Assembly: GCA_016935315.1 (NCBI GenBank)
Contig: JAFGRD010000078.1
Location: forward strand, 62,001 to 126,000
Origin: Pirellulales bacterium
GTDB taxonomy: Bacteria > Planctomycetota > Planctomycetia > Pirellulales > Thermoguttaceae
Direction: 5' to 3'
DNA length: 64,000 bases
The stretch's first letter is position 1; the number at the start of each line of letters is the position of its first letter. The translations under genes were made by a program, and so were the position numbers. Positions 2,464 to 20,250 of this stretch are shown here, in pieces. The notes below the pieces were generated by a model that saw only the letters and a program-made list of their open reading frames with translations, was not told where the DNA came from and ran no database searches.

Positions 2464-3549
2464 TCAGGGGTCGGATTCTGGTTGCGGATCTTCCACCGCT
2501 GTCCGCGAGCTGGCCCAGATCGAAGCGGCGATCGAGATTCCCAGCAGCGCCGCGATCACCAGCAACGAGCCCCAAACCGGAACCAGGTGGGTTCCCTCTT
2601 CGTGCTCGATGGCCCACTCGGCAATCATCTTCAACCCGACGAATCCCAGAATCGCGGCCAGCCCGTAATGCAGATAACGGAACATATCGACCATGCCGGC
2701 CAGCAGGAAATAGAGCGCCCGCAGACCGAGGATGGCGAAAACATTGGAGGTAAACGCGATGAACCGGTCGGGCGTAATGCCGATGATCGCCGGCACACTG
2801 TCGATGGCGAACACGACGTCGGTACTCTCGATGACCAGCAGCACCAGAAACATGGGAGTGATGCACCACTTTCCGTCTTCCCGGGCGAAGAAATCGTGGC
2901 CGTGCTGGTGGTGGTCGCCGCGGGTAACGCGGAAGAAGCGGCGGGCCGTTTTCAAGACGATATTCTTCTCCGGGTGGACATCGCTGCCCGCTTCGTGGGT
3001 GGCGAGCTTGTACGCCGTGTAGAGCAGGAATCCCCCGAAAATCGGCGCGACGATCTCGAACCGGTGAAACAGCTCGATGCCGCCGAGGATAAACGCCAGC
3101 CGCATCACGACCGCGCCCAAAATGCCCCAGAACAGCACGCGGTACTGGTACATCATGGGAATGTGGAAGAACCGAAAGATCACCACAAACACGAAGATGT
3201 TGTCCATCGACAACGCTTTTTCGATCAAGTAGCCGGTGAGGTATTTCAGGCCCGGATCCGAACCGAGCCCCGACGCAACGCCCCACCACCAGATCACCCC
3301 GTTGAAGGCCAATCCCAAAGCGATCCAGAAAACGGTGAATCCGGCCGACTCGCGCAGCGACGGCTTGTGATCCGTGCGATGAAAAACCAGCAGATCCAGC
3401 GCCAGCAGCACCGCGACGAGAACGCCAAAACCAAGCCAGTGGTAGGCGGTGGCGGGAAGGTGGTGCGAGGCGACTGCGGCGACCGCTTCCTGCTTCGCGG
3501 CGGACGACTCCAACGCATGGCAGAAGTAGACAGGCAAGAGCGAAAACAA
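2464..3549 (-). CDS. terC: TerC/Alx-family integral membrane protein
   Basis: About 361 residues from a TTG start at 3549 preceded by GGAAG; the frame stays open further upstream but without membrane-protein character. Multiple hydrophobic helices carry the TerC hallmarks: EKALSMDNIFVF in the first half and ESTDVVFAIDSVPAI in the second, both with the acidic residues thought to line a metal path. A histidine-rich cytoplasmic loop (GDHHQHGHD) lies between the halves. TerC/Alx proteins act in manganese export or metal loading of exported enzymes and in tellurite resistance. It sits directly upstream of the DUF1080 gene. I looked in the long leader for a yybP-ykoY manganese riboswitch and did not recognise one. 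Confidence 0.88.
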   Translation of the reverse strand: MFSLLPVYFCHALESSAAKQEAVAAVASHHLPATAYHWLGFGVLVAVLLALDLLVFHRTDHKPSLRESAGFTVFWIALGLAFNGVIWWWGVASGLGSDPGLKYLTGYLIEKALSMDNIFVFVVIFRFFHIPMMYQYRVLFWGILGAVVMRLAFILGGIELFHRFEIVAPIFGGFLLYTAYKLATHEAGSDVHPEKNIVLKTARRFFRVTRGDHHQHGHDFFAREDGKWCITPMFLVLLVIESTDVVFAIDSVPAIIGITPDRFIAFTSNVFAILGLRALYFLLAGMVDMFRYLHYGLAAILGFVGLKMIAEWAIEHEEGTHLVPVWGSLLVIAALLGISIAASIWASSRTAVEDPQPESDP

Positions 3550-4319
3550 AGTGGTTCTTCCTTCTGCGAACACGCGCCGCCAAGGAGCATTTCTCAACCG
3601 GTCCGGAAGCGAACTCCAAATGATAGGCTTTGGCGAGACTCCAGGCAACCTCGCCGCCCCGGCGTTGTCGCCGGCGCCAAGGATGCCGTCAGACGGGGCG
3701 CTGCCATGGATGCGCCGTGACGCCACCGCCGACGATGGCCGGCAGCAATCCAGAGGGGCATGCGACCAGGTCGTTCGGGGGGCACAAAGCTCGCGGGGGG
3801 CCACGAAGGACTCCGCTTAGAGGTTACCCCTTCACGGCCTTCGCTCCGGCAGCTTCACGTCAGGTCGGTTGTGTTGCTCGAAAACCCTTGTTCTTATCGA
3901 TGTTCGCCTTGTGAATGATCCAGGCCGACCAACGGAAGGCCGGAGAGGTTGGACTCCCGTTGGTCGCCCTCGCGCCTTGAGTGTGCAAGCGTCAATAGGC
4001 GTCCGTATTCGAGTGTTTCCCCTCCAGCGACCACCCTCCAAGCAGCCCGCCAGCCGCCGCTTCCTGCTGGTAAAGGAAGGCCGACCGTGAAATAATAGCA
4101 GATGCGGAATAATCCGGACTGAAGACTGCGGATTCTAGGGAGCGCAGGGTTTCCATCGAACCCTCCTCAAACGGTATGGCTCTGTTACAATACGATTGGT
4201 GGAAGAGCGCCCAGGTCGAGGATCCGGTAAGCCCGCCCGATCAATCCGATCCCTTGCCGATCCGAGCGCTCCCCCGCCGCGGAACAGTGAGACAATCAGC
4301 TACGGAAGAGGTAACTGCG
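3550..4319. other. Intergenic region between divergent terC and the TPR gene
   Basis: About 770 bases without a supportable gene. The right part holds copy 1 of the 103-bp palindromic repeat (3895-3997). The rest is GC-rich with several overlapping short open frames on both strands, none with a credible start, composition or similarity. It must hold the promoters of terC (minus) and of the TPR-exbB-exbD cluster (plus), but no convincing -35/-10 pair was found. Confidence 0.6.
3895..3997. repeat. 103-bp palindromic intergenic repeat, copy 1
   Basis: First of four copies (others at 24645, 38037 and 45229). Outer ends are TATCGA and TCAATA, a slightly degraded form of the TATTGA/TCAATA inverted ends of copies 3 and 4. 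Inside, GACCAACGG and CCGTTGGTC are inverted around a GC-rich loop, giving a strong hairpin in DNA or RNA. It does not touch a recognised gene here. Confidence 0.85.
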
Positions 4320-7300
4320 ATGAGATTCTGCCGCCTTGCCGTCATGGCGTCCGTCGTGCTTGCGCCGGCGTGGCTGTTGGCCCCGACGCAGCTCGTGGCC
4401 CAAGAGAAAACGCCGGAAGCCACCCGGCAGTACAACGCGGCCGTGGGACTGCACAACAGCGAGGCCTACGACCTGGCCGCCGACGAGTGGCTGAAGTTTC
4501 TCACCAGCTACAAGACCGATCCCCGCGCCGCCCACGCCCGGCACTATTTGGGCATTTGCTACTCCAAGCAGAACAAGCACGAGGAGGCGCTGAAGGCCTT
4601 CCAAACGGTCGTCAAGGACTTCCCCAAGTTCGACCTCTTGGCCGACACGTATTTGAACCTCGCCTTGACCCAATACCAGCTCGCCCACTCGGGCAAGCCC
4701 GAGCTGTACGACGTGGCGGCCGAGACCTTTCGCACGCTGGCCACCAAGTACCCCCAGAGCAAACACGTGGCCGACGCGATCTTCTACGAGGGCGAATGCC
4801 TTTACAACCGCGGCAAGAAGCAGGAGGCGGCCGCGAAGTACGACCAGGTCGTGAAGGACCACGCGGATCGCGCGGTCGCGGCCCAGGCGATGTTCGCTTT
4901 GGGCGTCACGCAGGCAGACCTGCAACAGCACGAGACCGCGTTGGCGACCTACGACGCGTTTCTCAAGCAGTTCCCCGAGAGCCCGCTGGTGGCCGAGGCG
5001 AAAATGTGGCGGGGCGAAACGTTGTTCGCGCTGAAGCGGTACGACGACGCGATAGCCGCCTACGCCGCCAGCGCCGCCGTCGAGGGCTTCGCCATGGCCG
5101 ATTACGCCACGGTCCGACAGGCCGACGCCTTGGCGGCCAAACAGCAATTTGCCGAAGCGGCCGGCCTGTATGCCTCGGTGCCGGCGAAGTTTCCAACGTC
5201 GCAATACGCGGGCCTTTGTCATCTGGAGGCGGGCAAGAAGTACTACGCGGCGGACGACCACCCGAAGGCCCAGGAGTGGTTGGGCAAGGTCGTTGCCGCC
5301 GGCGGCGCGGCGGCTCCCGAGGCGGCCCACTGGATCGCCCGAAGCCTGCTGAAACAGAAGAAGCCGGCCGAAGCGCTGGCCGTGGTGGAGAGGATCTTAC
5401 CGGCCGCCGGCGACGGGCCCGACGCCGTCTCGCTGTGGATGGATCAGGCCGACGCGATCTACGAGATCCCCGAGCGCCGCGGCGAGGCCGTCGCGCTGTA
5501 TGCCGCGCTGGCGGCAAAACACGCCGACGACCCGCTGGCCCCGCAGGCCCTGTACATGGCTGCGTTCGCCGCGATGAACCAGGGCGAGTATCAGACGGCC
5601 TTGACCCACGCGGGGGCGTTCCTGAAGGCCCATCCGGGCAACGATCTGGCCGTGGGCGTCAAGCACATCATGGCCGAGAGCAACCTGCTGTTGAACAACC
5701 ACGCCGAGGCCGAGAAACTCTATGGCCAGCTCCTGGCCGAAGCGCCGAACGATCGCGACGCCGAGATCTGGAAGGTCCACCTGGGCACCGCGATGTACCT
5801 GCAGAAGAAGTACGAGCAGACCGTCGCGGCGCTCGAACCGGTGGTCGACCAGTTGCAGACTCCCGGCCTCGTCGCCGAGGCCTGGTATCGCATCGGCCGC
5901 AGCCAGGTGGCCTTGAAGCAGTACGGCGAAGCGGCGAAATCGCTGGAGGCCTCGTTGGCGGCGGAACCGAAATGGAAGCTGGCCGACGACGCGCGTCTCG
6001 TACTGGCCTATGCCTACCAGCAGACGAAGAACCTGGACAAGGCGAAGGAAAACGCTCGAAAGGTGATCGAGGAGTTCCCCGACAGCGGCCAGTTGGACAT
6101 GGCGCACTACCGGCTGGGAGAATGCCACCGGCTGGGCAACGAGTTGCCGCAGGCCATGGCGGAGTATCAATTGGTGCTGAAGACCTGGCCGGAAAGCCCC
6201 CTGGCAAACCAGACGCTGTTCGGCCTGGGTTGGGCCCAGTTGGGTGCGGAGGACTACGCCGCCGCGGAGCAGACGTTCACCACGCTGGTCGAGAAGCATC
6301 CGGACGACACGCTCATCCCGCGAGCCCGCTACGGCCGAGGCATGGCCCGGCAACGGCTCGAGAAGTACCAGCCGGCCGCCGAAGACCTCCAGGCCCTGCT
6401 GTCGGCCGATCCGTCGCAGGCGGAGAAATCTCGCGCGCGGCACATCCTCGGGTTGTGCCAGAAGGGGCTGCAGCAGTTCGACCAGGAAGCGGCCACGCTG
6501 CAAACGCTGTTGAAGGAAGACCCGGACTACGCGGGCGCGGCCAACGTCTATTTCGAGCTGGGCTGGGCGCAGAAGTCGCTGAAGCAGGAGGCCGAGGCCG
6601 CCGCGACGTTCGCCCTGCTGACCGAGAAGTATCCCGACAGCCCTCTGGCCGCCGACAGTCATTACCTGGTCGGCGATTTCGCCAATGAGCGGAAAGACTA
6701 CAAGAAAGCGGCCGTCGCCTACTATGCGGCGATGAAGCAGGCGGGCAAGACGGATTTGGGAGAAGAGGCGGCCTACAAGCTGGGGCTGGCGTACTTTCTG
6801 CAGGACGATCTGAAGAACGCCCTGCAAACCTTCCAGTATCAGCAGGCAACCTGGCCCGAGGGGCCGTTGGCTTCCGACGGCGCCTTCATGGAGGGCGAAT
6901 GTCTCTCCAAGCAGGATCAGCCGAAAGAGGCCCTGGCGGCCTACCAGAGGGTGACCAACCCGTCGAACAAGGAAACCACGGCCTTGGCGCTGTTACACGC
7001 CGGCCAGGCGGCCGGGCAGTTGAAGCAGTGGCAGAAGTGCCTGGAATTGGCCACGCAGTGTGCCGAAAAGGCGCCCGATTCGCCCTCCTTGCACATGGCC
7101 CTCTACCAACAAGGCTGGGCCCAGCAGAACCTCGGCAAGCCGGACGAGGCCATGAAACTATATCCGCAGGTAATCGCCAAGGCCAACGACGAGTGGGCGG
7201 CTCGGGCACAGTTCATGATCGGCGAGATCCAGTTCGAGCAGAAGAACCACGCCGAGGCGATCAAGAGTTTCTACAAAGTGATTTACGGGTACGGCTATCC

Positions 7301-7460
7301 GCAATGGCAGGCCGACGCCACGTACGAGGCCGCCCGGTGTTTCGAGGTGCGCCGCGAGCCGGACAAAGCCGTGCAACTCTACCGGATGTTGATCGAGAAA
7401 TACGCCGACAGCGACAAGGTGTCGCTGGCGAAGCAGCGCATCGAGCAGTTGAAGCAGTGA
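4320..7460 (+). CDS. Exported multi-TPR protein (YbgF/BamD-like)
   Basis: 1046 residues from the ATG at 4320, which has GAAGAGG just upstream and opens a clear signal peptide (RFCRLAVMASVVLAPAWLL..., cut near LVAQ). The rest is a continuous array of roughly twenty tetratricopeptide repeats of 34-38 residues (recurrent A-x-x-x-Y/F, YPDSPLA and GWAQ patterns). There is no catalytic domain. Such proteins are periplasmic scaffolds. It heads a plus-strand cluster with ExbB, ExbD and a giant toroid protein, which recalls the Tol system where a TPR protein (CpoB/YbgF) accompanies TolQ/TolR. A longer in-frame start at 4176 exists but lies before the signal peptide. Confidence 0.85.
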   Translation: MRFCRLAVMASVVLAPAWLLAPTQLVAQEKTPEATRQYNAAVGLHNSEAYDLAADEWLKFLTSYKTDPRAAHARHYLGICYSKQNKHEEALKAFQTVVKDFPKFDLLADTYLNLALTQYQLAHSGKPELYDVAAETFRTLATKYPQSKHVADAIFYEGECLYNRGKKQEAAAKYDQVVKDHADRAVAAQAMFALGVTQADLQQHETALATYDAFLKQFPESPLVAEAKMWRGETLFALKRYDDAIAAYAASAAVEGFAMADYATVRQADALAAKQQFAEAAGLYASVPAKFPTSQYAGLCHLEAGKKYYAADDHPKAQEWLGKVVAAGGAAAPEAAHWIARSLLKQKKPAEALAVVERILPAAGDGPDAVSLWMDQADAIYEIPERRGEAVALYAALAAKHADDPLAPQALYMAAFAAMNQGEYQTALTHAGAFLKAHPGNDLAVGVKHIMAESNLLLNNHAEAEKLYGQLLAEAPNDRDAEIWKVHLGTAMYLQKKYEQTVAALEPVVDQLQTPGLVAEAWYRIGRSQVALKQYGEAAKSLEASLAAEPKWKLADDARLVLAYAYQQTKNLDKAKENARKVIEEFPDSGQLDMAHYRLGECHRLGNELPQAMAEYQLVLKTWPESPLANQTLFGLGWAQLGAEDYAAAEQTFTTLVEKHPDDTLIPRARYGRGMARQRLEKYQPAAEDLQALLSADPSQAEKSRARHILGLCQKGLQQFDQEAATLQTLLKEDPDYAGAANVYFELGWAQKSLKQEAEAAATFALLTEKYPDSPLAADSHYLVGDFANERKDYKKAAVAYYAAMKQAGKTDLGEEAAYKLGLAYFLQDDLKNALQTFQYQQATWPEGPLASDGAFMEGECLSKQDQPKEALAAYQRVTNPSNKETTALALLHAGQAAGQLKQWQKCLELATQCAEKAPDSPSLHMALYQQGWAQQNLGKPDEAMKLYPQVIAKANDEWAARAQFMIGEIQFEQKNHAEAIKSFYKVIYGYGYPQWQADATYEAARCFEVRREPDKAVQLYRMLIEKYADSDKVSLAKQRIEQLKQ

Positions 7461-7516
7461 CGCCGCCTCCCCGCTGTATGAGAAGAACCACCAACGACAA
7501 GCGAAAGGGTTCTCCG

Positions 7517-8530
7517 ATGAACCGAGCCGATAGCCGGGCCCGCCGGGCCGTCTTCTCCGTCGCCGTGGCACTGGCCGCGGTGGCCACGGTTGCCGCCGTG
7601 ACGCTCGTGGCTGCCGGGCCGGTCTGCGCCCAGGAAACCGGGCCCCAGCCCGCCGACCTGCCCGTCGCCGACCAAGACGCGGCCGCGGCGGAAGGCCTGC
7701 CGCCGGTCGAGGATGCGGGCGCCACAGGCGCAGTCGAGGGCGGAGAAACCACCCAGGCCGCCGCGCCGGAAGTGATCGAGCAGATCAACTGGCTGGAGAC
7801 GCTGATCCGCGGTGGTTGGTTGATGCTGCCGATCCTGGCCATGTCGTTGCTGGTGGTGACCTTCGCGGTCGAGCGGCTCTTGGCGCTGCGGCGCTACAAG
7901 GTTTTGCCGCCGCAGTTGATCGCCGCCCTGGGCAGACTGGCCGGTCAGAAGGGCGGGCTCGATCCGCGCCAGGCCTACCGGCTCTGCCAGCAATACCCGT
8001 CCGCCGCGGCCAACGTCATCAAGGCCATGCTGCTGAAGGTGGGCCGGCCGCACACCGAAGTGGAGCACACGGTCGCCGAGGCCAACGACCGGGAGGCCGC
8101 CCGGCTCTATGCCAACGTCCGCTGGCTCAGTCTGGCCGCCGGGGTCGCCCCGCTGTTGGGCTTGCTGGGGACCGTTTACGGCATGATCCTGGCGTTCTTC
8201 GCCACGGCCAACCTTCCCATCGGGGCCAACAAGGCCCAGCACCTGGCCGACGGCATTTACGTGGCACTGGTCACCACCTTTGCCGGCCTGGCGGTGGCGA
8301 TTCCGGCGGCCGTGCTGGCCCACTTTTTTGAAGGCTGGATCCAGAAGCTGTTCCGCGAGTTGGACGAAACGCTCTTGGGGCTGATGCCGCAATTGGAGCG
8401 ATTCGAGGGCCGCCTGCGAATCAGCAAGGACCAGATGGACAGTCCCGGCACGGCCGGCGACGGACGGCTTCAGCGCGAGCCGGTCGCCGGCGGAAACGAG
8501 GCGTCGCGCCCGGTTCCAGCGCCGAAATAG
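7517..8530 (+). CDS. exbB: MotA/TolQ/ExbB proton-channel family protein
   Basis: 337 residues. An N-terminal signal-like segment is followed by an acidic Ala/Pro-rich linker (about residues 40-90), then the family's three helices: WLMLPILAMSLLVVTFAVER, the conserved GVAPLLGLLGTVYGMI segment, and the VALVTTFAGLAVAIPA segment. The extra exported N-terminal extension is common in planctomycete and Bacteroidetes ExbB proteins. ExbB forms the pentameric channel around ExbD and converts proton flow into force on a periplasmic partner. The ATG at 7517 follows AAGGG. It lies 56 bases after the TPR gene and 41 bases before exbD, consistent with one operon. Confidence 0.9.
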   Translation: MNRADSRARRAVFSVAVALAAVATVAAVTLVAAGPVCAQETGPQPADLPVADQDAAAAEGLPPVEDAGATGAVEGGETTQAAAPEVIEQINWLETLIRGGWLMLPILAMSLLVVTFAVERLLALRRYKVLPPQLIAALGRLAGQKGGLDPRQAYRLCQQYPSAAANVIKAMLLKVGRPHTEVEHTVAEANDREAARLYANVRWLSLAAGVAPLLGLLGTVYGMILAFFATANLPIGANKAQHLADGIYVALVTTFAGLAVAIPAAVLAHFFEGWIQKLFRELDETLLGLMPQLERFEGRLRISKDQMDSPGTAGDGRLQREPVAGGNEASRPVPAPK

Positions 8531-8571
8531 GTTGGGAAATGGACCTGTTGTAGCAGTGCGAGACCTCTGCC

Positions 8572-8991
8572 ATGGCCGTTAACATCAACAAAGGCACGGC
8601 GCTGTCGAATCTCAGCCTCACGCCGCTGATCGACATCGTTTTTCTGCTGTTGATCTTCTTCCTGGTCGCCACCCGGTTCGCCGAAGAAGAGCGGGAGCTG
8701 GACATCCAGTTGCCCGACGCCAGCGAGGCCCAACCGCTGACCACCAAGCCCCGCGAGATGTTCATCAACATCGACGAGCAGGGCCGCTACTTCGTCACCG
8801 GCAAGTTCCTCACGCTCAAGGAGCTGCATCCGGTCCTCGAGGCGGCCTACGTCAACAACCCGGGACGGGCGTCGGTCGTCATCCGGGCGGACCGGAAATG
8901 CGACTGGGAATACGTCGTTGCGGCGATGAACGCCTGCAAGAAGGCGAAGATCCGCGATTACCGCGTCACGACACGCGAGAGCAGTGCGTGA
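8572..8991 (+). CDS. exbD: ExbD/TolR family protein
   Basis: 139 residues. There is a short cytoplasmic start, one helix (LTPLIDIVFLLLIFFLVATRF) carrying the conserved proton-relay Asp at about residue 21, and a periplasmic domain of about 95 residues with the usual INIDEQGRYFV and VVIRADRKC strands. It is the partner of the ExbB directly upstream. The stop lies 22 bases before the start of the giant toroid protein, which I take to be what this motor acts on. The ribosome site is weak. Confidence 0.93.
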   Translation: MAVNINKGTALSNLSLTPLIDIVFLLLIFFLVATRFAEEERELDIQLPDASEAQPLTTKPREMFINIDEQGRYFVTGKFLTLKELHPVLEAAYVNNPGRASVVIRADRKCDWEYVVAAMNACKKAKIRDYRVTTRESSA

Positions 8992-9013
8992 CCGAAAGGA
9001 GACGCGTGCTACC

Positions 9014-12000
9014 ATGGCGGGAAGCGTCCGCAGAATCCGCAAGGTCCAGACGGCCCAGGTCGCCGACTTCGATGACCAGCTCTGGCCGATCAACTGCGCG
9101 ATTCTGATCCTGGCCGGATTCGTCGCCGGGATCGTCATCGCCGTCAGCGATTTCCAGGATCCGCGCCTGCTCTACAACGGCTGGGCGCGGCTGGTCAGCG
9201 TCGCTGCGATGGTGGGGCTGTCGTTCTGGGGTGTGATGTGGCTGCAAGGCAAGATGCTCCGCCGGCTGCAACTCTGCGTCCTGGTCAGCCTGTTGTTCCA
9301 CTTGTGGCTGGCGATGTATCTGCACGAGCAGTACTTGGCCCTGCTGGCCCAGCGGGAGACCGAATCGGCCCAGCAGCTTGCCGAGCCATTCGAGCGGATC
9401 ACCGTGCCGGACTACCACTGGGAGCAGATCGAAGAGCCCGAGGAGCATCAGACCTTCGAGGAGCCCATCGAAACGGAAGCCCCCAAGCCCAGCGAGTCGG
9501 AAGCGGTCAAACGCGAGGCCAACGACCCGGAGATGCCGACCGAAGTCGAGCCGCCCAAGGAACCCGAAATCCCGCAACGCCAGCAACCCGATCCGTCCGT
9601 AATCCGCCGGGCCGAGTTGTCGGCGCCGCGGCGAGCCGACGCGGCCGCCGGCGGCCAGATCAGCCGCCAGCAGTGGAGGCATCGCCCGCAGCCCAATGAG
9701 CCGATTCCCGAACCCGAAGTCCAGCCTTCGCCCGCCCAAGCGGCCGCCGTGCCCAGTGCCGATGTGGCGCCGCGCCGGCGACAGTCGGGCCCAGTCCAGG
9801 TAGACCAGCGTCAGTTGTTCGAGGAATTCTCCAGCACGCGGCCGGAGCCGGTCGAGGTCCGCCTGGCGCGACGCGCGACCGGATCGCAGCCGATCGACGA
9901 TTCGCCGACCACGCCGACCCCCAGCAGACAGATCCGGCGGCCGGCCGAGATTGCACGGACCGAGGCCTCCGTGCCGGAACCGGTCGAAGTCGCCCAAAGA
10001 TCACCGGCGGCCGGGCAGTCGCAGTCGATCACCCGGATGACCGCACGCCGAGAGGCTGAGGCCCCGACGCTGGTCTCGCAGACAGCCGAGGCGCTCCCGA
10101 ATCCCACGGCGCCGGGAGCGACTGCCTACGTGACCCTGCAACGCCGCGCAGCGGATCAGGCCCCGCGACCCGCCCAGGCGCGCCGCCCGCTGCCCGCCCA
10201 TCGGCCGGCCGACGTCCCGACGCCAACGACGCCGTCCGGCCCGCCGCTGGCGGCCTTACCGGCTGCGGCGCCGGACGACGGGGCGACGTCGCATCTGACG
10301 GATGTGGCGATGTCGCGTCGCCTGAGTGTTGCGACGGCCACTTCGCCGACACACGTCTCGCAAGTGGCGGTGGACCTGAACGTGCAACGTGCGGCCGGCA
10401 GGGCTGTTGGGATCGCGGTGAGTCCCGTCCAAACCGCCATGACAGAACTCGCGCCGCAGCCGCGCGCGGATCGCTCCGCCCCGATTGCCCGCTCGCGGAC
10501 CGCCCCGCAAGTGGCCGTGTCGCAGATTCAGCCGTCGGCCGGCCCGGTCGGTACGGCTGTGTCGTCCCAGCCGAGCCTCCCGGTGGCTCGCCTTGCCCCC
10601 AGTGCCGTCGGCACGGCAGCCGATCGATCGGTCGCGTTGGCGCAGAGCCAGCCAGCCGGCCGGGCCTTGCCGGCGATGACCCGCGTAGCGGAGTTGCCGG
10701 CCGCGATGGCGCCGCGTCGGACTGCCGCCTCGCAACAGGGGCCAACCGGCGCCGACGCCGCACCGGACAGACCGATGTCGCTGGCCAGATCGAGCCAGGG
10801 CGTGAGTCTGCCCTCCAGCGCGATCGCGCTTCCGTCGCAACCCGCCTCGACTCCCGCCGCGGCGGGCGGAACGCCGACCAGCCGGATCGAGTTGGGCACA
10901 AACTCCGCTTTGCGCCGCGAGGCGGCCGAGCCGGCGCCGGGCGAGAACGCGGCCGCCGCCGGAACCGCCGAATTCGCCGTCGGCTCGTCGCAGGTCGTCG
11001 CGCGCATCGGGCAGCCGCGTGCCAGCGGAATCGGCCAGGCCTCGGTCATTGCCAATGCCGCCACACGGCGCATTGCCCGGGTCGGCGGTCCCGTCGCGCC
11101 GTCGATCGCCGCCTCAGGCGTTCCCGAGGCCATGGCTGCCTCGCCGGGCGCGGTGGCCTCCAGCGACCACGGCTCGTCCGCCCCCTCGTTCAATCTCCGG
11201 GCCTCTGCGGCCAAGCGCGGCGGAACGGTCCTGCCGCTGGCGGCGCAAGCGACGATTGGCTCCGGACCGCCCGATTCCAGCGGCGCGCCCGGGGCGGTCG
11301 GAGTTGCAATGAGCAGCCGCGTTACCCGGCATGAATCGGTCGCCGTGGGCATCGCCGGCGGAGGAACGCCGAGACCGGGTCGAACCAGCGGCGGCGCCGT
11401 CTCGGCCAATGCGACGGCCGAGGCATCCTCCTTGGCTACCTCCGCCCCCAGCGGCGGAACGGCCAATCAGACTCCGCCGCTACCGGCCCCGGTCAGCGGC
11501 CCGCGACGCCAGGTCCTGGGGCTGCCCGGTAGTCTGGAGACCCAGCCGATGGCCGGGGCGCTGGCCTCGCTTTCCAGCGAAGGCGCCCCGTTGCCCGGGG
11601 CCGTTGCCCGCCGTGGGTCAGGTCCCAGGCAATCGCCGGGCGAGCGCCAGATCGGACCGGCTGAGAGCGTGACCCTGAGACGGTCTGCGACGGGGACCGA
11701 TTTGCCGGCGGCCGCCGTGGCCGTGGAAGACGTTGCCGAGACCGGAGCCGGCGGCGTAGCCCTGGCCCAAGGGGGACTGCCCAGTTCGCTGCGACGCGGC
11801 CCAAGCGCGAGTGTCCGGCATGCCGCCGCCGACGTGGCTACCGGACCGAGCACGGCCGCGGCGGGGACCGCCGAAACCGGAGTCGGTTCGTCGCGGGTGG
11901 TCGCGCTGGCCGGCCTGGCCCGGGCCACCGGCGACAACCTGCCGTCGATGGCCGCCGGGGGCGGGCGGCCTCAGATCCGCCGATCGCCAACGACCGGACC

Positions 12001-14068
12001 GGCGCTGGCCATGGCAGGTTCTCCGGGCGCACCGCCAGCTGCGGAAGCGATCCCCGGCCAGGCGGGCACCGAGGGCACGGAGCCGGCGGCAGTGGTCGCC
12101 GCCGCCGCAGTGGCCGAAGACGCGGCCGCCGTGGCCCAAGGTGCCGGCGGCGTGCCCACAGCAGCACAAGCGTCCGAAGGCCCCGCCGCGTTCGTGCAGC
12201 CCGCCGGGGGAGCGATTGCCGCAATGCCCACCGGCCGCGACGGCCGCGACGACCGGGTGATGGCGGCAGCCTTGGCCGGTGCCGCCGCGGGACCGACCCG
12301 CACGACGGGCGCCTTGAGGGCATTGGGCGGCAGCGAGGCGGCCCCCGAGCTGGCGGCGGCCGGCCCGTCGACCGGTGGTTCGCATGCGGCCCCCGACGTT
12401 TCCTCCCTTGTGAATCTCAGCGGTCCACAGCGTCAGGTGGCAGGTCTGCCCGGCGACTTGACAACCCGGATCGCCGTCGAGGCAGCCCTGGAAGCCGGCC
12501 CGGCCACGACCACGCCGGCCACGGTGGCGGGCCGGCGGCGATTGCCGCAGGGCGACGAAACGGGGCTTTCGCTGGCCGCCGAGGTGGGGCGCGGACCGCT
12601 GCGTCGCCCCGATCTGCCCGGACTCCCCCACGGCGTCGCCGAGACCATCGAGGAACAACCGCTTGCTGCGGCAACGGCTCCCGAGGCCGGCGATGCGGCC
12701 GAAGTGGCCGAAGGTATCGGCATCGGCCGGCCCAGCCGTCGCGAGGGCGGCTTGCCGGTGCAGATCGCCGCGGTCGCCGGGCCCGGAGGTTTGGGCTACG
12801 ATCCGTCGCCCGAGGTGGGGCTGCCGAGTCGTCGGGCGCGGCCCGAAAGCGAGATCATCCACACCGTCTCCCGGCGGTTCATCATCGAGCGCAGCGGCGG
12901 CCGGTTGGCCATCGACGGCCGGGTGCGCGAGCAGCCGACCGAGGCCTTTCGCCAGCGCGACCTTGACCGCCGCAGCCAGGCCGCCCAGGCCTTCGGCGGC
13001 TCCGAGGGCACCGAAAAGGCGGTCGAAATGGGACTCGACTTCTTCGCCCGACACCAGTTTCCCGATGGCCGGTGGAGCCTGCACAAGCTGCCCCCGGGCC
13101 TCGAATACGAGGACTCGGCGCTGGGACAAATGGAGGCCGACACGGCTGCCACGGGGCTGGCGCTGCTGACGTATCTCGGCGCCGGCTACACCCATCTGGA
13201 CGACAAGCACCGGGCGGTCGTCAACCGGGGTATCGATTGGCTCGTGCGGAACCAAAAACCCGACGGCGACCTGTTTACCGGCGGAACCAACTACGCCTGG
13301 TTCTACAGCCACGGGATCGCCGCCATCGCCTTGTGCGAGGCCTATGGCATGACCCGCGACCCCCAACTCCGCGAGCCGGCCCGCAAGGCGATCGAGTTCA
13401 TCGTCAAGACGCAGCACCCCACGCGGGGCGGCTGGCGCTACTACATCGACGACCGAGGCGTCGCAACCGAAACCGACACCTCGGTGTCCGGCTGGCAACT
13501 CATGGCGATCAAGAGTGCCCAGATGGCCGGTTTGAATGTGCCCCAGGAAACGCTACAGAAGGTGGACGGCTGGCTCGAGACGGCGCAAGCGGCCGGGGCG
13601 GACGGGCAATACGTGTACAACCCGCACGCCAAGAACACTCCCGAACAACGCGACGGTCGCAAGCCCAACCTGGCCATGACCGCCGAGGCGATGTTGATGC
13701 GGATGTACCTTGCGCACCCGAGCGACGACCCGGGCCTGATCGCCGGGGCGGAGCACCTGAAGGAGAACCTCCCGCAGCTTGGCGACGCAGACAAGCCCCT
13801 GCGAGACTGCTACTACTGGTACTACGCCACGCAGGCGATGTTTCAAATGCAGGGCGACTACTGGACGTCCTGGAACGATCGGCTGCGCCCGCTGACCCAG
13901 CGGAGCCAGGCTCAAACGGGCGAAGCCGCCGGAAGCTGGCATCCCGCCAAACCGGTGCCCGATCGCTGGGGACACGCCGGTGGCCGCCATTACGTGACCG
14001 CCATGCACTTGTTGATGCTCGAAGTGTACTATCGCCACTTGCCGCTCTTCCAGGAGCTCCGGCGTTAG
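9014..14068 (+). CDS. Giant membrane-anchored low-complexity protein with C-terminal prenyltransferase/squalene-cyclase-like toroid
   Basis: 1684 residues from the ATG at 9014, which is preceded by AAAGGAG; the frame opens earlier but without a better site. Three N-terminal membrane helices (about residues 24-43, 58-77, 85-105) are followed by an acidic/proline stretch (EEPEEHQTFEEP), then more than 1100 residues of Ala/Pro/Ser/Arg/Gly-rich sequence. Residues about 1329-1684 form an alpha/alpha-toroid of the prenyltransferase/squalene-oxidase-repeat type (GRWSLH, GGWRYYI and GSWHPA QW-like motifs). The catalytic DxDD of squalene-hopene cyclases is not visible, so a binding or structural role is likelier than cyclization. 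The linker contains an internal duplication of about 305 residues (near 645-946 and 947-1250). It probably spans the periplasm as the output of the ExbB/ExbD motor; this is inference. Confidence 0.8.
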   Translation: MAGSVRRIRKVQTAQVADFDDQLWPINCAILILAGFVAGIVIAVSDFQDPRLLYNGWARLVSVAAMVGLSFWGVMWLQGKMLRRLQLCVLVSLLFHLWLAMYLHEQYLALLAQRETESAQQLAEPFERITVPDYHWEQIEEPEEHQTFEEPIETEAPKPSESEAVKREANDPEMPTEVEPPKEPEIPQRQQPDPSVIRRAELSAPRRADAAAGGQISRQQWRHRPQPNEPIPEPEVQPSPAQAAAVPSADVAPRRRQSGPVQVDQRQLFEEFSSTRPEPVEVRLARRATGSQPIDDSPTTPTPSRQIRRPAEIARTEASVPEPVEVAQRSPAAGQSQSITRMTARREAEAPTLVSQTAEALPNPTAPGATAYVTLQRRAADQAPRPAQARRPLPAHRPADVPTPTTPSGPPLAALPAAAPDDGATSHLTDVAMSRRLSVATATSPTHVSQVAVDLNVQRAAGRAVGIAVSPVQTAMTELAPQPRADRSAPIARSRTAPQVAVSQIQPSAGPVGTAVSSQPSLPVARLAPSAVGTAADRSVALAQSQPAGRALPAMTRVAELPAAMAPRRTAASQQGPTGADAAPDRPMSLARSSQGVSLPSSAIALPSQPASTPAAAGGTPTSRIELGTNSALRREAAEPAPGENAAAAGTAEFAVGSSQVVARIGQPRASGIGQASVIANAATRRIARVGGPVAPSIAASGVPEAMAASPGAVASSDHGSSAPSFNLRASAAKRGGTVLPLAAQATIGSGPPDSSGAPGAVGVAMSSRVTRHESVAVGIAGGGTPRPGRTSGGAVSANATAEASSLATSAPSGGTANQTPPLPAPVSGPRRQVLGLPGSLETQPMAGALASLSSEGAPLPGAVARRGSGPRQSPGERQIGPAESVTLRRSATGTDLPAAAVAVEDVAETGAGGVALAQGGLPSSLRRGPSASVRHAAADVATGPSTAAAGTAETGVGSSRVVALAGLARATGDNLPSMAAGGGRPQIRRSPTTGPALAMAGSPGAPPAAEAIPGQAGTEGTEPAAVVAAAAVAEDAAAVAQGAGGVPTAAQASEGPAAFVQPAGGAIAAMPTGRDGRDDRVMAAALAGAAAGPTRTTGALRALGGSEAAPELAAAGPSTGGSHAAPDVSSLVNLSGPQRQVAGLPGDLTTRIAVEAALEAGPATTTPATVAGRRRLPQGDETGLSLAAEVGRGPLRRPDLPGLPHGVAETIEEQPLAAATAPEAGDAAEVAEGIGIGRPSRREGGLPVQIAAVAGPGGLGYDPSPEVGLPSRRARPESEIIHTVSRRFIIERSGGRLAIDGRVREQPTEAFRQRDLDRRSQAAQAFGGSEGTEKAVEMGLDFFARHQFPDGRWSLHKLPPGLEYEDSALGQMEADTAATGLALLTYLGAGYTHLDDKHRAVVNRGIDWLVRNQKPDGDLFTGGTNYAWFYSHGIAAIALCEAYGMTRDPQLREPARKAIEFIVKTQHPTRGGWRYYIDDRGVATETDTSVSGWQLMAIKSAQMAGLNVPQETLQKVDGWLETAQAAGADGQYVYNPHAKNTPEQRDGRKPNLAMTAEAMLMRMYLAHPSDDPGLIAGAEHLKENLPQLGDADKPLRDCYYWYYATQAMFQMQGDYWTSWNDRLRPLTQRSQAQTGEAAGSWHPAKPVPDRWGHAGGRHYVTAMHLLMLEVYYRHLPLFQELRR

Positions 14069-14264
14069 GACGCCGCCACCGCGATCTGCTTGGGATCGCG
14101 CCTTTCGCTTCGCCTTGCCGGCTCCGCCGGAGCCAAGCGGCCGCACATGGGACCCGGGTGCCGCCGGTCGCCGCCGTCGGTGTCTCTTCGCCCATCGAAG
14201 ATCGTGAACCTCGCGTTGGAGGCCGCATCGCCCCGGCACGGGACGAGACCTCCCGGCACGTAGA

Positions 14265-15251
14265 CTACTTGCCCGCGTACCACACGCCGCGGAGCCAGTT
14301 GTGGCGCCGCAGCTTCGCCAGCAGCGCGGCCGGCAAGTCGGGCCTGTCGGAAACGCTCAGGTTCAACTCCGCCTGGCGTGCGTTGCGGATGCCGGGGATC
14401 ACCGTGCTGACGGACGGATGGGCCAGGACGAATTTCAACGCCACCTCGGCCAGCGTGAGATCCCGCGACAACCCGGCCTCGGCAACGTCGGCGCGAATCT
14501 CTTCGACGCGGTCCGCGGCGCGGTCGAGCCGGTCGCCGGCGAAATAGTCGCTGCGGAAGTCATCCGCGGGAAACGTGTGGCCCTTGGAGTACTTCCCCGT
14601 TAGCACCCCCTCGTCGAAGACCACGCGGACGATCACGCCGGTGCCCGTCTCTCGGGCGACGGGCAGGATCTCGGCGGCCGGCTCCTGCTCGAACAAGTTG
14701 TAGATGATCTGGATCACGTCGACGTATCCGCGGCGCATCAGGTCGACTACGCAGTTCTGATCCTGTTCAGGCGTGGAGATGCCGATCAACCGCAGCTTGC
14801 CTTCCTGGCGAAGCCGCCGGAGGATTTCCAGCGGCGCGGGATCGCGGTTGAAAGCCCGGGTCCAACTGTGCAACTGGAGCACGTCGAGGCAATCGGTGCC
14901 CAGGTTCTTCAACCTCGTCTCGACGTTGGCTCGGAGGTAGTCCTCGGGATAGCGCGCTTCGACGGTGCAGTACGGCGTAGGGGGCCACGGGCCGGGCTTG
15001 GGCGGCGTTTTGGTCGCCACGTAGACCTGCTCCGACCGCTCGCGGAGCACACCGGCGATCACCCGCTCGCTGCGGCCGTTGCCGTAGCCTTCGGCGGTGT
15101 CGATGAAGTTCAACCCCAGGTCGATCGCCTTGTTTAGTGCCGCAATCGAATCGTTGTCGTCCTGCCCTCCCCACTGGCCCCCCAGGGCCCAGCCGCCGAA
15201 GCCGACTTCCGAAACGTCCCATCCCGAGTTGCCCAGCTTCCGATAGTTCAT
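14265..15251 (-). CDS. Aldo/keto reductase
   Basis: 328 residues of (beta/alpha)8 aldo-keto reductase type. The catalytic tetrad is visible as Asp and Tyr in DTAEGYG (about 51 and 56), Lys in VATKT (about 81) and His in LQLHSW. The NADPH-binding end is present as VIPGIRNARQAELN. The family reduces carbonyls with NAD(P)H; planctomycetes carry many copies and the substrate cannot be inferred. The ATG at 15251 follows GGAAG. It is transcribed divergently from blaI. Confidence 0.9.
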   Translation of the reverse strand: MNYRKLGNSGWDVSEVGFGGWALGGQWGGQDDNDSIAALNKAIDLGLNFIDTAEGYGNGRSERVIAGVLRERSEQVYVATKTPPKPGPWPPTPYCTVEARYPEDYLRANVETRLKNLGTDCLDVLQLHSWTRAFNRDPAPLEILRRLRQEGKLRLIGISTPEQDQNCVVDLMRRGYVDVIQIIYNLFEQEPAAEILPVARETGTGVIVRVVFDEGVLTGKYSKGHTFPADDFRSDYFAGDRLDRAADRVEEIRADVAEAGLSRDLTLAEVALKFVLAHPSVSTVIPGIRNARQAELNLSVSDRPDLPAALLAKLRRHNWLRGVWYAGK

Positions 15252-15601: not shown

Positions 15602-15991
15602 ATGTCCCGATACCCTTCCACGGGGCCCACCGACGTCGAGTTGCTGATCCTCGGCGTCCTATGGAAATGCGGCCCGGCCACCGTCCGCCAGGTCCACGAC
15701 GCCATGGCCGACCGTCGCGACACGGGCTATTCGACGACACTGAAGATGCTTCAGATCATGAAGGACAAGGGGCTGGTGGTGCGTGACGAGTCCGTTCGGC
15801 CTCAACTGTACCGGGCTGCCGAGCCCAGAGAGAGGACCCAGCTTCGTCTGCTCGACGATCTGGCCCAAAAGGCGTTCGGCGGCTCCGCGGCCCGGTTGGT
15901 GATGCGGATGCTCTCGGCCAACCGCGTCTCGCCGGAGGAGATGGCCGAGATGCAGCGTCTGGTCGACCAAGCAAAGGGAGAATCCCCATGA
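15602..15991 (+). CDS. blaI: BlaI/MecI/CopY-family transcriptional repressor
   Basis: 129 residues with the winged-helix core of the Penicillinase_R family (TDVELLILGVLWKCGPATVRQVHDAM, then YSTTLKMLQIMKDKGLV). The C-terminal dimerization/cleavage half ends in the typical EEMAEMQRLVDQ helix. The ATG at 15602 follows GAAAGGAGCC. The stop overlaps the start of the M56 sensor in an ATGA, the standard blaI-blaR1 coupling. The family represses until the membrane sensor triggers its cleavage. Confidence 0.95.
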   Translation: MSRYPSTGPTDVELLILGVLWKCGPATVRQVHDAMADRRDTGYSTTLKMLQIMKDKGLVVRDESVRPQLYRAAEPRERTQLRLLDDLAQKAFGGSAARLVMRMLSANRVSPEEMAEMQRLVDQAKGESP

Positions 15992-18900
15992 TTACGCTCA
16001 GCGAACTGCTCGCGTCTGCCTGGGTGCAGCGTACCGGCTGGACCTTGGTGCATTCCCTGTGGCAGCTTGCCGTGGTGGCGTCGGCCACCGTGCCCGTCTT
16101 GGTGTTGTTGCGAAACCGCTCGCCGCAGATGCGCTATGGGATCGCGTGCGCCGCCATGGGGCTGATGGGGCTGGGGCCCGTGGCCACCTGGTGTCTGGTG
16201 CCCGACGCTGCTGCGGCGCCGTCTCCGGTCGCTTCGCCGATTCGGACGCTGCTCGTGCCCGACTCGGCCGTCCCCGGGCTGGCTGCGGACGACGCTTCCG
16301 TGCGGCCGGTGGCGCCGCATGCCGGACCGCCTGCGACCGCCTTCGGGCCGCCGACATTGCCGCTGACGGACCCATCGCCCGGTTTGGAGGCAAAGCCGGC
16401 GCCGTTCTGGGCTGCCTGGTCCGCTTGGCTGCCGTACGGCGTGCTGGCCTGGATGCTGGGCGTGCTGCTGCTGGCGGTCCGCAACGTCGGCGGCTGGGCG
16501 ACGGCCCAGCGGCTTTGCAGCGCGGGAACCTCGCCCATCGACGGCGAAGTTGTGGGTCGACTGGCAGGGCTGATCGAGCGTGCGGGCCTTGCCCGGCCGG
16601 TGCGGGTGCTCGCCTCGACGGTCGTCGATATGCCGATGGTCGTCGGCAGCCTGCGGCCGTTGGTGTTGATACCCCTGAGCGTGTTGACCGGGCTTCCGCC
16701 GTTGCAGCTCGATGCGGTGATCGCCCACGAGTTGGCCCATATCCGGCGGCACGACTATCTGGTCAATCTGCTGCAAACGGTCGTCGAAACGCTGCTGTTC
16801 TACCATCCGGCCATGTGGTGGATTTCGCGGCGGGTCCGCATCGAGCGGGAGCTCTGCTGCGATGACATGGCCGTGGCCGTCTGTGGCAACAAGCTCGCCT
16901 ATGCGGAAGCCCTGACGGCCGTCGAACGCCAGCGGGGCCGGCCGGCGCTGGCCATGACGGCGGCTCGCGGCGGGGCACTGCACCGCGTGCGTCGCGTCCT
17001 GGGGCTCGGCGTGCAGGAGTCGATTCCCTGGCGACCATCGCTCGTCGGCAGCCTGGCCGCCTTGGCAACCGTCGCTCTGCTGATTACCTGCCTGACCTAT
17101 GCCGCCGAATTGCGGCCCAAGCCGGCGGCCACGCCGATCGAAGCCGACGAGCCCGTCGCCCCCGATAGGGACGCCACCGTCGACGGCCTTCTGGAATTCG
17201 ACAAGCGGATTCCGCTGAATCTCGTCTCCGGAGCGGGCGACGAGGAGGAGATCGTCCGGTTGGCCTGGGTCGTGTTTCGCAAGGACGATGACGAGCTTCA
17301 GGCCGATATCCGCACGGTGCTGCTGTCCTATCCCAAGGGCAGATGGCGCGTGACGGTCACCCTGCCGCCCGAGTTGGAGCCGGCGAAACAGAAGCCGTTG
17401 GCGACTGCAAATACCGTCTTCGAGAACAGCGGCATCGTCCTCGGCGTGCCCCTACGGCGGGAAGGCGATCTGCAACTGTCGCTGGGACCGTGGGAACAAG
17501 CCCGCCGGGCGAAGCGGTTTCGCGTCCATCTGAGCCGTGCCCCGTCCGAGGCCGAAGTCACCGGCCGCTTGGCCTCCGGGACCACGGAAGAACTGGCTGG
17601 CGGTCGCTGCTCGCTGCAGGTGACGGTCAAGACCACTGCGAAGCTGGACGACGACCGGGTGCAGTTCAGCCTCTGGCGCGTGGCCACGCCGGCCGATCCC
17701 CTGGCGCGCGACGCGGCCACGTTCGGCGGTGGGCGAGTGACTTGGGACGATCCGCCAAACGCCACGGCGTGGCAGCCGTGCTACAACGTCAGCACAAACC
17801 TCGATCGGCCGTATACGGTCAAGGAACTGCCTGCGGGCCGCTATCGCGTGACCGCCGGTCGCGACGGCACGAAGCAGAACCGCGATCCGACGCCCTACGG
17901 CATCAGCGGAGTGATCGAATTGACCGCGCAGCAGCCCGACGGCGAGGTAACCGTCGAGCTGGTGGGCGGGCAGCGGCTGACGATCCGGGTCGTCGACGGC
18001 AAGACCGGCAAGCCCATGCCGCGCGAGAAGATCCTGCTGCGGCGCCAGGACGGCGCGCCGATCGGCTGGGGATCGTCGGTTGGGCTGGGTCAATGGACCG
18101 ACGAGGAAGGCGCCAGGGTCTACAACGGCTTGGAGCCGGGCCCCTACCTGCTCGAGGTCGGCCGCAGCGGCTGGTGGGGCGGACGCTACTACCCGCCCCA
18201 GAGCGTCAAGCGGGTCGATCTGACCATCAGCGGCGATCGGCCGAAAGCGATTACCGTTACCTATGACCCGCCCGACCTCTCCGGTCGGTCCGCCGGCCTG
18301 CAACGTACGCTTGAAGCCGACAAGCACACGGTCCGCGCGGCCTTCTTCGGCCACTCGGATACGGACCACGAGGCCGAGCCGATGCGCGTGGTCAGCGACC
18401 CCGTGGAGACCGTGGTGGAAGACAAGACGACCGAATCCGCTTGGGGCGAAGCGGCCGAAGGCGTCAGCGTGCGCCTGAAGGACGTGCATCGCGTCTGGGG
18501 GCGCTCCGATTGGCCGGACGTGGTGGTGCGGTTGACCGTCGATGCTCGCAACGACGGCCAGTACCGGCTGCACCTGCCGGAGAACGGCCTGACCTGGCAG
18601 GTCGAGGTTGACGGCAGATGGTACGAACACGTGCCCAAACGGACACACGGGGACATCGTAGACGTCGGTCACGTCAGCAAGCTGCTCGATTTCCAGGGCG
18701 GCCGGAAGCACGAAAACCTCACCGTGGAAGTGGCCGGGGGCTGGCGCCGCATTCCCGCAGGCAAGGAGCTGGCGTACGCCCGGCGGCGCTATGGCTCCGG
18801 TTTCGCCGTTGTTGGCAAGGTCGAGGATCAGTACGGAGAGGTGCTGCATCTCACCCCGGGCAAGCATCGGTTGCGCGTCGCCCTGGCTTGCCCGTCCTCC

Positions 18901-20250
18901 CGCGCTGGGCAGAACATCGAGCCGCTTCGCGTGGTCAGCAACGCCATGCAGATCGATACGACCTTCCGCGCCAGTTTTCCTGCCGAATCGGCCGCGGTTG
19001 CCGAGGGCCTCCCCGACTGGGCTCTGGCGGTGCGCAAGGTGTTTGCCGGTTGGGAGCTGATCGCCTGCGACGAGGAGCCCTCGTTGCAGGTCGGGACGGG
19101 GCGGGGTTCTCGGCTGTTGCTGCGTCACGGCCGACGCGAACTGATTCAACCCGCCCAGCAGCAGGCCGCCCTCGCGTTGCCGGGCCAGTTGCGTGACGAG
19201 GATTTCCGGATGGTGCCGTCGCACATCGACATTGTCGTGTTTCCGGAAACGGCCGCGCTGCCCGAGGACGCCAAGCAGCAAATCCCGTGGCAAGAGGTCG
19301 GCCAGGAGTGGCACGTCCGGCCTGTCGACCTCGGCACGGGACTGGGCCATCGCTGGTTCGCCCGCACGACGATTTTCTGGCAGGAGCAGCTCCGCGAGAA
19401 CCTGAAGCTCCAAGGCGGCGACGACCGGCTGCAACTGATCGCCGAAGGCCTGGCGATCCGGGACCAGGGCGATTGCACGGCCAACAGCCTCGTCCACCCG
19501 GCGGCGGCCAAGGGCGACGTGATGCTGCCGTATCTCGAGCGGATGATCGAAGAAACGCCCCAGGAGCAGTGCTGGCGGCTGGTGCGACCTCTGGGCTATT
19601 GCGACAGCCCGAAGGCCACGCAGGCGCTGCTGCGGTTCTACCAGCAGGAGAAGACCCGCGACGCGACGGCCTATGGGCTGATCAGCGGCAAGCCGCGCGA
19701 AGCGGCCAAGCCGGTCTATTTCGACCTGCTGAAGCGGCGGCAGTACCTCAGGCAGGTAGCCGCGGCGTGTGTGGAGTTCCAGTGGAACGACGCGGTGCCG
19801 CTGCTGCAAGAGATCGTCGAGAAGCCCGCGACGTGGCAGTTCCGCCCCGCCTTCGAGGCCATGCGTCGGCTGCAGGGCAAGCCCGTGCCGGCGAACCTGG
19901 CCGGGGCCGAGCAGACGCTATGGCGGGCCAATGCGGACTCGCTCGCGTCGGAGGAGGTTCGACGGGCGAAAGCGACATTGCTTGGGTCCGCCGACACGGA
20001 GGCCGCCGTCGTCGCGGCCGCCTATCTGGCCAACTTCAGCACCAAGGCCTCGCACGAGAAGATCGCAGCCGTCCGCGGCATCGGCATGGAACTGCTCCGG
20101 GCGTTGCCGCGCGACGTGACGCGCCCGCTCCTTGGGCGCCTGGCAGAGCACCTGGACTACGAGTGGGACCGCCAACGGTTTCGCGAGATACTCGCGCTGC
20201 TGGACACCGAGGCCGCGCCCGGCAATTCCGAGCATGTCTGGCCCCAGTAG
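15988..20250 (+). CDS. blaR1: BlaR1-type M56 metallopeptidase sensor with very long C-terminal region
   Basis: 1420 residues. The N-terminal part (about 1-330) has several membrane helices and the zinc-peptidase site HELAH near residue 246, followed by IERELCCDD, which supplies the third ligand. A further helix (about 351-368) leads to an exported region of over 1000 residues that is not the penicillin-binding domain of classical BlaR1. It includes a carboxypeptidase-regulatory/Cna-B-like segment (GQRLTIRVVDGKTGKPMPREKI) and a helical HEAT-like end with checkpoint-type repeats. It is translationally coupled to blaI. By family knowledge, a signal sensed outside activates the peptidase, which cleaves BlaI. 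The ligand here is unknown and probably not a beta-lactam. Confidence 0.85.
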   Translation: MITLSELLASAWVQRTGWTLVHSLWQLAVVASATVPVLVLLRNRSPQMRYGIACAAMGLMGLGPVATWCLVPDAAAAPSPVASPIRTLLVPDSAVPGLAADDASVRPVAPHAGPPATAFGPPTLPLTDPSPGLEAKPAPFWAAWSAWLPYGVLAWMLGVLLLAVRNVGGWATAQRLCSAGTSPIDGEVVGRLAGLIERAGLARPVRVLASTVVDMPMVVGSLRPLVLIPLSVLTGLPPLQLDAVIAHELAHIRRHDYLVNLLQTVVETLLFYHPAMWWISRRVRIERELCCDDMAVAVCGNKLAYAEALTAVERQRGRPALAMTAARGGALHRVRRVLGLGVQESIPWRPSLVGSLAALATVALLITCLTYAAELRPKPAATPIEADEPVAPDRDATVDGLLEFDKRIPLNLVSGAGDEEEIVRLAWVVFRKDDDELQADIRTVLLSYPKGRWRVTVTLPPELEPAKQKPLATANTVFENSGIVLGVPLRREGDLQLSLGPWEQARRAKRFRVHLSRAPSEAEVTGRLASGTTEELAGGRCSLQVTVKTTAKLDDDRVQFSLWRVATPADPLARDAATFGGGRVTWDDPPNATAWQPCYNVSTNLDRPYTVKELPAGRYRVTAGRDGTKQNRDPTPYGISGVIELTAQQPDGEVTVELVGGQRLTIRVVDGKTGKPMPREKILLRRQDGAPIGWGSSVGLGQWTDEEGARVYNGLEPGPYLLEVGRSGWWGGRYYPPQSVKRVDLTISGDRPKAITVTYDPPDLSGRSAGLQRTLEADKHTVRAAFFGHSDTDHEAEPMRVVSDPVETVVEDKTTESAWGEAAEGVSVRLKDVHRVWGRSDWPDVVVRLTVDARNDGQYRLHLPENGLTWQVEVDGRWYEHVPKRTHGDIVDVGHVSKLLDFQGGRKHENLTVEVAGGWRRIPAGKELAYARRRYGSGFAVVGKVEDQYGEVLHLTPGKHRLRVALACPSSRAGQNIEPLRVVSNAMQIDTTFRASFPAESAAVAEGLPDWALAVRKVFAGWELIACDEEPSLQVGTGRGSRLLLRHGRRELIQPAQQQAALALPGQLRDEDFRMVPSHIDIVVFPETAALPEDAKQQIPWQEVGQEWHVRPVDLGTGLGHRWFARTTIFWQEQLRENLKLQGGDDRLQLIAEGLAIRDQGDCTANSLVHPAAAKGDVMLPYLERMIEETPQEQCWRLVRPLGYCDSPKATQALLRFYQQEKTRDATAYGLISGKPREAAKPVYFDLLKRRQYLRQVAAACVEFQWNDAVPLLQEIVEKPATWQFRPAFEAMRRLQGKPVPANLAGAEQTLWRANADSLASEEVRRAKATLLGSADTEAAVVAAAYLANFSTKASHEKIAAVRGIGMELLRALPRDVTRPLLGRLAEHLDYEWDRQRFREILALLDTEAAPGNSEHVWPQ

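Follow-up and report, generated by a model that had tools for sequence, protein, structure and literature searches.

Organization of the gene cluster

The window, the 64,000-nucleotide stretch of Pirellulales DNA analysed here, carries four genes arranged head to tail on the plus strand at positions 4320-14068, encoding a TPR-repeat protein, ExbB, ExbD and a giant protein of 1684 residues (Table 1). The gaps between them are 56, 41 and 22 nt, and reading frames, gaps and Pfam matches all agree with the tight cluster claimed in an earlier note on this DNA; the names of the four products are also consistent between the Pfam and NCBIfam scans. The TPR gene's reading frame opens at 4176, and the start at 4320 is preferred because a signal peptide, judged by eye, begins there. 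The alternative GTG start of the giant gene would make it overlap with the ExbD gene. No plus-strand promoter-like site was found in the gaps of the cluster or just 5' of the TPR gene, and one lies within the TPR gene, at 6094. The minus-strand flanks of the cassette encode a TerC family protein (2464-3804) and an aldo/keto reductase (14265-15251), neither of which looks like part of it. Positions 15602-20250 hold a BlaI-type repressor followed by a 1420-aa BlaR1/M56 peptidase protein, and at the related cassette loci L153, L155, L156 and L165 the protein encoded directly upstream of the TPR gene belongs to a cluster that resembles M56 by eye.

Table 1. Features of the four-gene cluster, in window coordinates
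Feature	Positions	Strand	Basis
TPR-repeat protein, 1046 aa, likely signal peptide	4320..7460	+	TPR_6 4e-77; Pfam TPR families
ExbB/TolQ-type motor subunit, 337 aa, N-terminal extension	7517..8530	+	MotA_ExbB 85.6 bits (Pfam)
ExbD/TolR-type motor subunit, 139 aa, membrane Asp21	8572..8991	+	ExbD 90.3 bits (Pfam)
Giant transducer-like protein, 1684 aa, ATG 9014 (alternative GTG 8984)	9014..14068	+	ORF and Pfam
Helix 1, residues 24-44, membrane	9083..9145	+	Structure model
Helix 2, residues 56-76, membrane	9179..9241	+	Structure model
Helix 3, residues 80-122, TonB-like membrane helix	9251..9379	+	Structure model and N-terminal alignment
S92-x3-H96 motor-docking signature (S92-L-L-F-H96), in helix 3	9287..9301	+	Motif counts, alignments
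Candidate D-box ITVPDY, residues 129-134	9398..9415	+	Weak
Ala/Pro-rich linker, ~1185 aa, about residues 135-1319	9416..12970	+	Composition, 20% Ala, 12% Pro
Alpha/alpha toroid domain, folded part about residues 1331-1677	12971..14065	+	Pfam, alignment, structure model, fold search
Terminator-like hairpin 3' of giant gene	14080..14100	+	Weak: 12 such sites in region against 9.2 expected by chance

Recurrence of the cluster among relatives

The comparative sample consisted of 38 regions of relatives, some of them from the window's own genome, and 80 named loci. Among 118 toroid reading frames, the window's included, 69 have ExbD upstream and 37 do not; 6 duplicates and 6 short frames were dropped, leaving 106 distinct long toroid proteins. 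The rows are the best matches to the window's toroid, and the sample thus favours its orthologues. In the 68 relatives with ExbD directly upstream, the order TPR-ExbB-ExbD-toroid is complete in 51. Since these relatives were selected by ExbD adjacency, it is the TPR and ExbB genes that carry the information, and their recurrence argues that the cluster is not a chance arrangement. Seven of the 17 incomplete sets hold at least 6 kb of upstream DNA, so that contig ends do not explain these. The co-occurrence in planctomycetes that the earlier note had proposed to check is thus found, yet the toroid and motor genes are unlinked in several genomes.

The closest toroids among the named loci are almost all planctomycete, and of 294 genomes sampled from the phylum, 186 contain relatives of the toroid at E 1e-40 or better. 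The recurrent neighbour clusters contain no conserved fifth gene, the most frequent neighbour, at 14 of the 68 loci, being of the sugar-nucleotide epimerase/dehydratase type as judged by eye. A single origin of ExbD linkage was not found on the toroid tree, which gave 17 changes, a number that is partly due to unlinked and contig-edge copies being counted as orphans.

Where the toroid gene lacks an adjacent ExbB gene, an ExbB with 42-64% identity is encoded elsewhere in each of the six such genomes searched, with a TPR neighbour in five and an ExbD neighbour in five; this search covered seven genomes, six unlinked and one linked control. The window's own genome (7.1 Mb) has seven ExbB loci, three of which adjoin a toroid-type gene. 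One, L070, is a second set with a toroid protein of 710 residues. On contig C77 (L078:7886-12416), a toroid-like HEAT-repeat protein, a 291-aa membrane protein with no Pfam match, ExbB and two ExbD genes lie in a row. The toroid-like protein is a weak match of 627 aa, encoded two genes upstream of ExbB, with SQHop and TED matches below cut-off and a likely signal peptide by eye. This cluster is a second kind of toroid-motor cluster.

The toroid head

The C-terminal domain of the giant protein matches SQHop_cyclase_C with 33.7 bits against a Pfam cut-off of 26.1. The earlier note had proposed predicting the structure of this end of the protein, and a model of the last 365 residues (pLDDT 93.7, pTM 0.92) indeed gives an alpha/alpha toroid, whose best PDB neighbour is squalene-hopene cyclase (Z 27.1, rmsd 3.2, 294 residues aligned, 17% identity). 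Related terpene cyclases, sugar 2-epimerases and GH76 are further neighbours. The same note had described a cyclase-like fold without the usual acid motif and named a complete DxDD or another catalytic motif among the features that would refute its reading; D.DD is absent from all 34 aligned toroids, window included, and the lack of a conserved DxDD speaks against terpene cyclase identity. (The alignment leaves out the weaker own-genome L015-L019, L026, which has an internal stop, and the partial L048.) Five of the 106 toroid proteins do contain D.DD, at scattered positions that look like chance. By comparison, DxDD is present in five of six hopene cyclases from related genomes, and in the sixth, L180, neither DxDD nor a QW repeat was picked, probably because of a wrong frame. 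The location of the DxDD site cannot be fixed by sequence because the toroid repeats align in several registers. LanC and pectate lyase were rejected as identities, their Pfam matches being weak and below cut-off and the His of the SHG stretch not being invariant. Neither TonB_C nor vWA appears among the Pfam matches of the giant protein, and TonB-like folds would not surface in the fold search because the toroid fills the match list.

An enzyme in this position would be a membrane-anchored protein with a glycan-active or terpenoid-type periplasmic toroid, the ExbBD pair serving something else. The nature of the closest solved folds speaks for such an enzyme, as do 24 invariant columns in the 34 toroids, many of them aromatic or polar, a pattern also to be expected of an enzyme. 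In L049, L053 and L085 the toroid gene is moreover followed, within a few kb, by a true hopene cyclase gene in tail-to-tail orientation, but this neighbour occurs in just 3 of the 118 loci and the linkage is taken as local. Given that DxDD is not conserved, and that an enzyme leaves both the repeated motor neighbours and the membrane-helix signature described below unexplained, we consider this reading improbable.

The docking helix and its motor

The N-terminal region of the giant protein is predicted to form three membrane helices, as the earlier note had proposed; the single-chain model (pLDDT 84, pTM 0.55) supports the helices only, and not their packing. The third helix contains a Ser-x3-His signature of the kind that docks TonB and TolA on their motors from within the membrane helix (PMC12215075; PMC12204202), and its charge pattern, read by eye, puts it in a predicted in-to-out direction like that of the TonB helix. 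S-x3-H is found in a hydrophobic stretch in 52 of the 69 cassette proteins, window included, whereas other Ser/His spacings reach 0-8 of 69 and the reversed order 2-7 of 69; in mechanically called neighbouring reading frames with hydrophobic stretches it occurs in 13 of 311. Among the 17 misses, the His is retained in 13, where Ala, Gly or Cys replaces the Ser; two have Ser-x3-Asn, and two have neither residue. In 50 of 68 cases the signature lies in the helix that immediately precedes the linker, and in six of 68 it lies in an earlier helix. Among 63 N-termini, collected as phmmer matches to that of the giant protein, conservation of 85% or more is limited to three columns: Trp24 (60 of 63), His96 (58 of 63) and Pro25 (55 of 63). 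Alignment A2 contains 54 of the 63 with a mean column identity of 25%, conservation having been recounted on all 63; in L056 and L057 the automated pick gave a neighbouring His, and the aligned His is visible in the S-x3-H listing. The full SHLS pattern (Ser-x3-His-x6-Leu-x3-Ser) is not present in the giant protein, where Leu103 is followed by Tyr107 at the position of the last Ser, and S-x3-H-x6-L, which extends to its third position, occurs in only 17 of 69. The Leu and Ser of SHLS are less conserved in Ton systems as well (PMC12215075).

The motor subunits retain key residues. The membrane Asp21 of ExbD is kept in 68 of 69 sequences, the exception being an alignment gap, and of the ExbB pore residues, Thr219 is invariant in the 57 aligned sequences and Thr254 is kept in 56 of them, 12 of the 68 relatives having yielded no ExbB beside the toroid gene. 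Ser110 and Pro263 of ExbB, each kept in 55 of 57, are by-eye matches of Ser34 and Pro190 in the E. coli TonB contact network (PMC12215075). Together, the helix-3 signature and the retained ExbD Asp and ExbB Thr residues strengthen the TonB/TolA-type transducer layout suggested in the earlier note, which does not mention the signature.

Could the giant protein instead be a stationary three-helix scaffold, with ExbBD acting on something else and S-x3-H an inherited feature of helix packing? The presence of three helices rather than one is consistent with a scaffold, and so is the absence of the ExbB Trp that contacts the TonB His in E. coli, which is not Trp here but Val in 39 of 57. The toroid proteins that have no ExbD upstream argue otherwise. 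Of these 37, five lack any hydrophobic stretch; of the 32 counted, 24 carry S-x3-H, with other spacings at 0-2, and the signature is found in 17 of the 20 in which there is just one such stretch. In proteins with one stretch, S-x3-H cannot be put down to packing on helices 1 and 2, and we regard the scaffold as very improbable indeed.

Between helix 3 and the linker lies a FERITV stretch, situated between Pro125 and Pro132, which overlaps a candidate D-box. The D-box, a strand pattern that follows the membrane helix, is described in PMC10907165; a D-box-like pattern occurs in 17 of 67 cassette rows, and the single-chain structure model has no strand at the candidate. The long linker of the earlier note is readily seen in composition and length (Table 1). 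From the Ser of S-x3-H to the toroid, the median distance is 731 residues in 64 cassette proteins, and across toroid proteins the docking helix and head are separated by about 110 to 1830 residues. The shortest linker in a cassette protein, 145 residues in L108, may reflect a spurious domain start, its near relatives having about 467.

Tol-like and TonB-like readings

If the giant protein is a transducer, two specific identities can be considered. The first would make the cluster the planctomycete Tol-Pal system, with the TPR protein as CpoB, ExbB and ExbD as TolQ and TolR, the giant protein as TolA, and the TolB propeller fused to it in some relatives. The gene order TPR-TolQ-TolR-transducer fits, as do the best NCBIfam matches of ExbB to TolQ and of ExbD to TolR, both far below cut-offs. 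The TPR protein's tol_pal_ybgF match, at 344 bits, is a repeat match and not proof of orthology. TolB is a propeller of the PD40 kind, and PD40 scored above cut-off in all five related toroid proteins scanned (L081, L082, L150, L153 and L156), in each case ahead of the S-x3-H helix. In L081, L082, L143, L150, L153, L155, L156 and L165, 370-430 residues precede that helix. On the toroid tree a five-protein group (100/98) contains three of the PD40 proteins and lies near a 74-member group that contains the giant protein (99/93), the joining of the two groups not being settled by the tree, but L153 and L156 fall in another branch, so that the PD40 proteins are split over two. PD40 is moreover a common repeat, with 17 matches in the window's genome, the head differs from the TolA C-terminal domain, and neither TolB nor Pal was recognised by eye among the recurrent neighbour clusters; three OmpA-domain matches lie elsewhere in the genome. 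On balance, identity with Tol-Pal is possible but doubtful.

The second identity is TonB-like import, in which the toroid would pull on an outer-membrane receptor, or power large-molecule uptake, in a lineage where TonB_C is often missing. The window's genome has one match to Plug, the TonB receptor domain, and none to TonB_C, and the relatives have Plug in 34 of 60 genomes and TonB_C in 16 of 60. Against import, 24 of the 60 genomes have toroid matches without a Plug match, and a by-eye reading of the names of the recurrent neighbour clusters turned up no receptor gene. We judge import to be unlikely. Two genomes, G026 and G033, have 12 and 15 Plug matches with no TonB_C match, and there another transducer may serve.

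Discussion

We think it likely that the products of the cluster form an envelope motor driven by protons, together with a force transducer of its own. As elsewhere in their family, ExbB and ExbD would make up the inner-membrane proton motor. The giant protein, in which the motif itself is observed, would dock on ExbB through S92-x3-H96 of helix 3, as TonB and TolA do; a short strand following the membrane may be offered to ExbD, and helices 1 and 2 would give helix 3 the in-to-out orientation that TonB has, and may also anchor the protein in the membrane. The ring-shaped domain at the far end would then pull on the cell envelope. Granting all of this, the likeliest job may be Tol-like, keeping the outer membrane and the wall in register, because the partner gene codes for a TPR protein and TolB-like PD40 repeats are present in some related toroid proteins. 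This is the least certain step of the model, advanced tentatively, and our confidence in the target of the head is much lower than our confidence in its coupling to the motor.

The giant protein probably works like a TonB or TolA transducer and is, by its head, a member of neither family. It shares with both the ExbBD/TolQR-type partner genes, the S-x3-H helix, a Pro/Ala-rich linker and a C-terminal globular head, and differs from them in the fold of that head, in its length, in its seldom keeping the full SHLS, and in having three helices; TonB and TolA have one membrane helix. With squalene-hopene cyclases and other alpha/alpha toroids it shares the fold of the C-terminal domain, and it differs from them in having a single toroid, no conserved DxDD, motor neighbours and a tether to the membrane. 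Among described families the nearest is that of the vWA-headed transducers (PMC12204202), which, as described there, also occur in Planctomycetes and likewise combine TPR, TolQ-like and TolR-like genes with a membrane-anchored protein that has an SHLS-type helix, a linker that is disordered and, at its end, a head not related to the TonB C-terminal domain. Those proteins have a vWA head, paired TolR-like genes and a domain II of about 100 residues, whereas the proteins described here have a toroid head, one ExbD, a far longer typical Ser-to-toroid distance and three membrane helices. The words toroid, squalene and cyclase do not occur in the main text of PMC12204202, and no title or abstract among the literature matches listed, a scope that excluded subscription papers and preprints, describes a toroid-headed transducer.

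More broadly, and with some reservation, we suggest that the planctomycete toroid proteins, giant and short alike, may be a phylum-wide class of TonB-type transducers with a squalene-cyclase-like toroid in place of the TonB C-terminal domain. A cell would have several such heads sharing a few ExbBD motors and together standing in for the often-missing TonB and TolA, and the varied distance between helix and head would let the heads reach both nearby and distant targets in an enlarged periplasm. Family libraries match the scanned toroid proteins weakly, and mainly to squalene cyclases; the present analysis provides a testable function for this common and unexplained protein family. It would also add, after the vWA heads, another unrelated head fold to the TonB-type transducers, suggesting a docking helix that is portable as a module, and it offers an entry point to how planctomycetes power their envelope when a TonB_C protein is not found.
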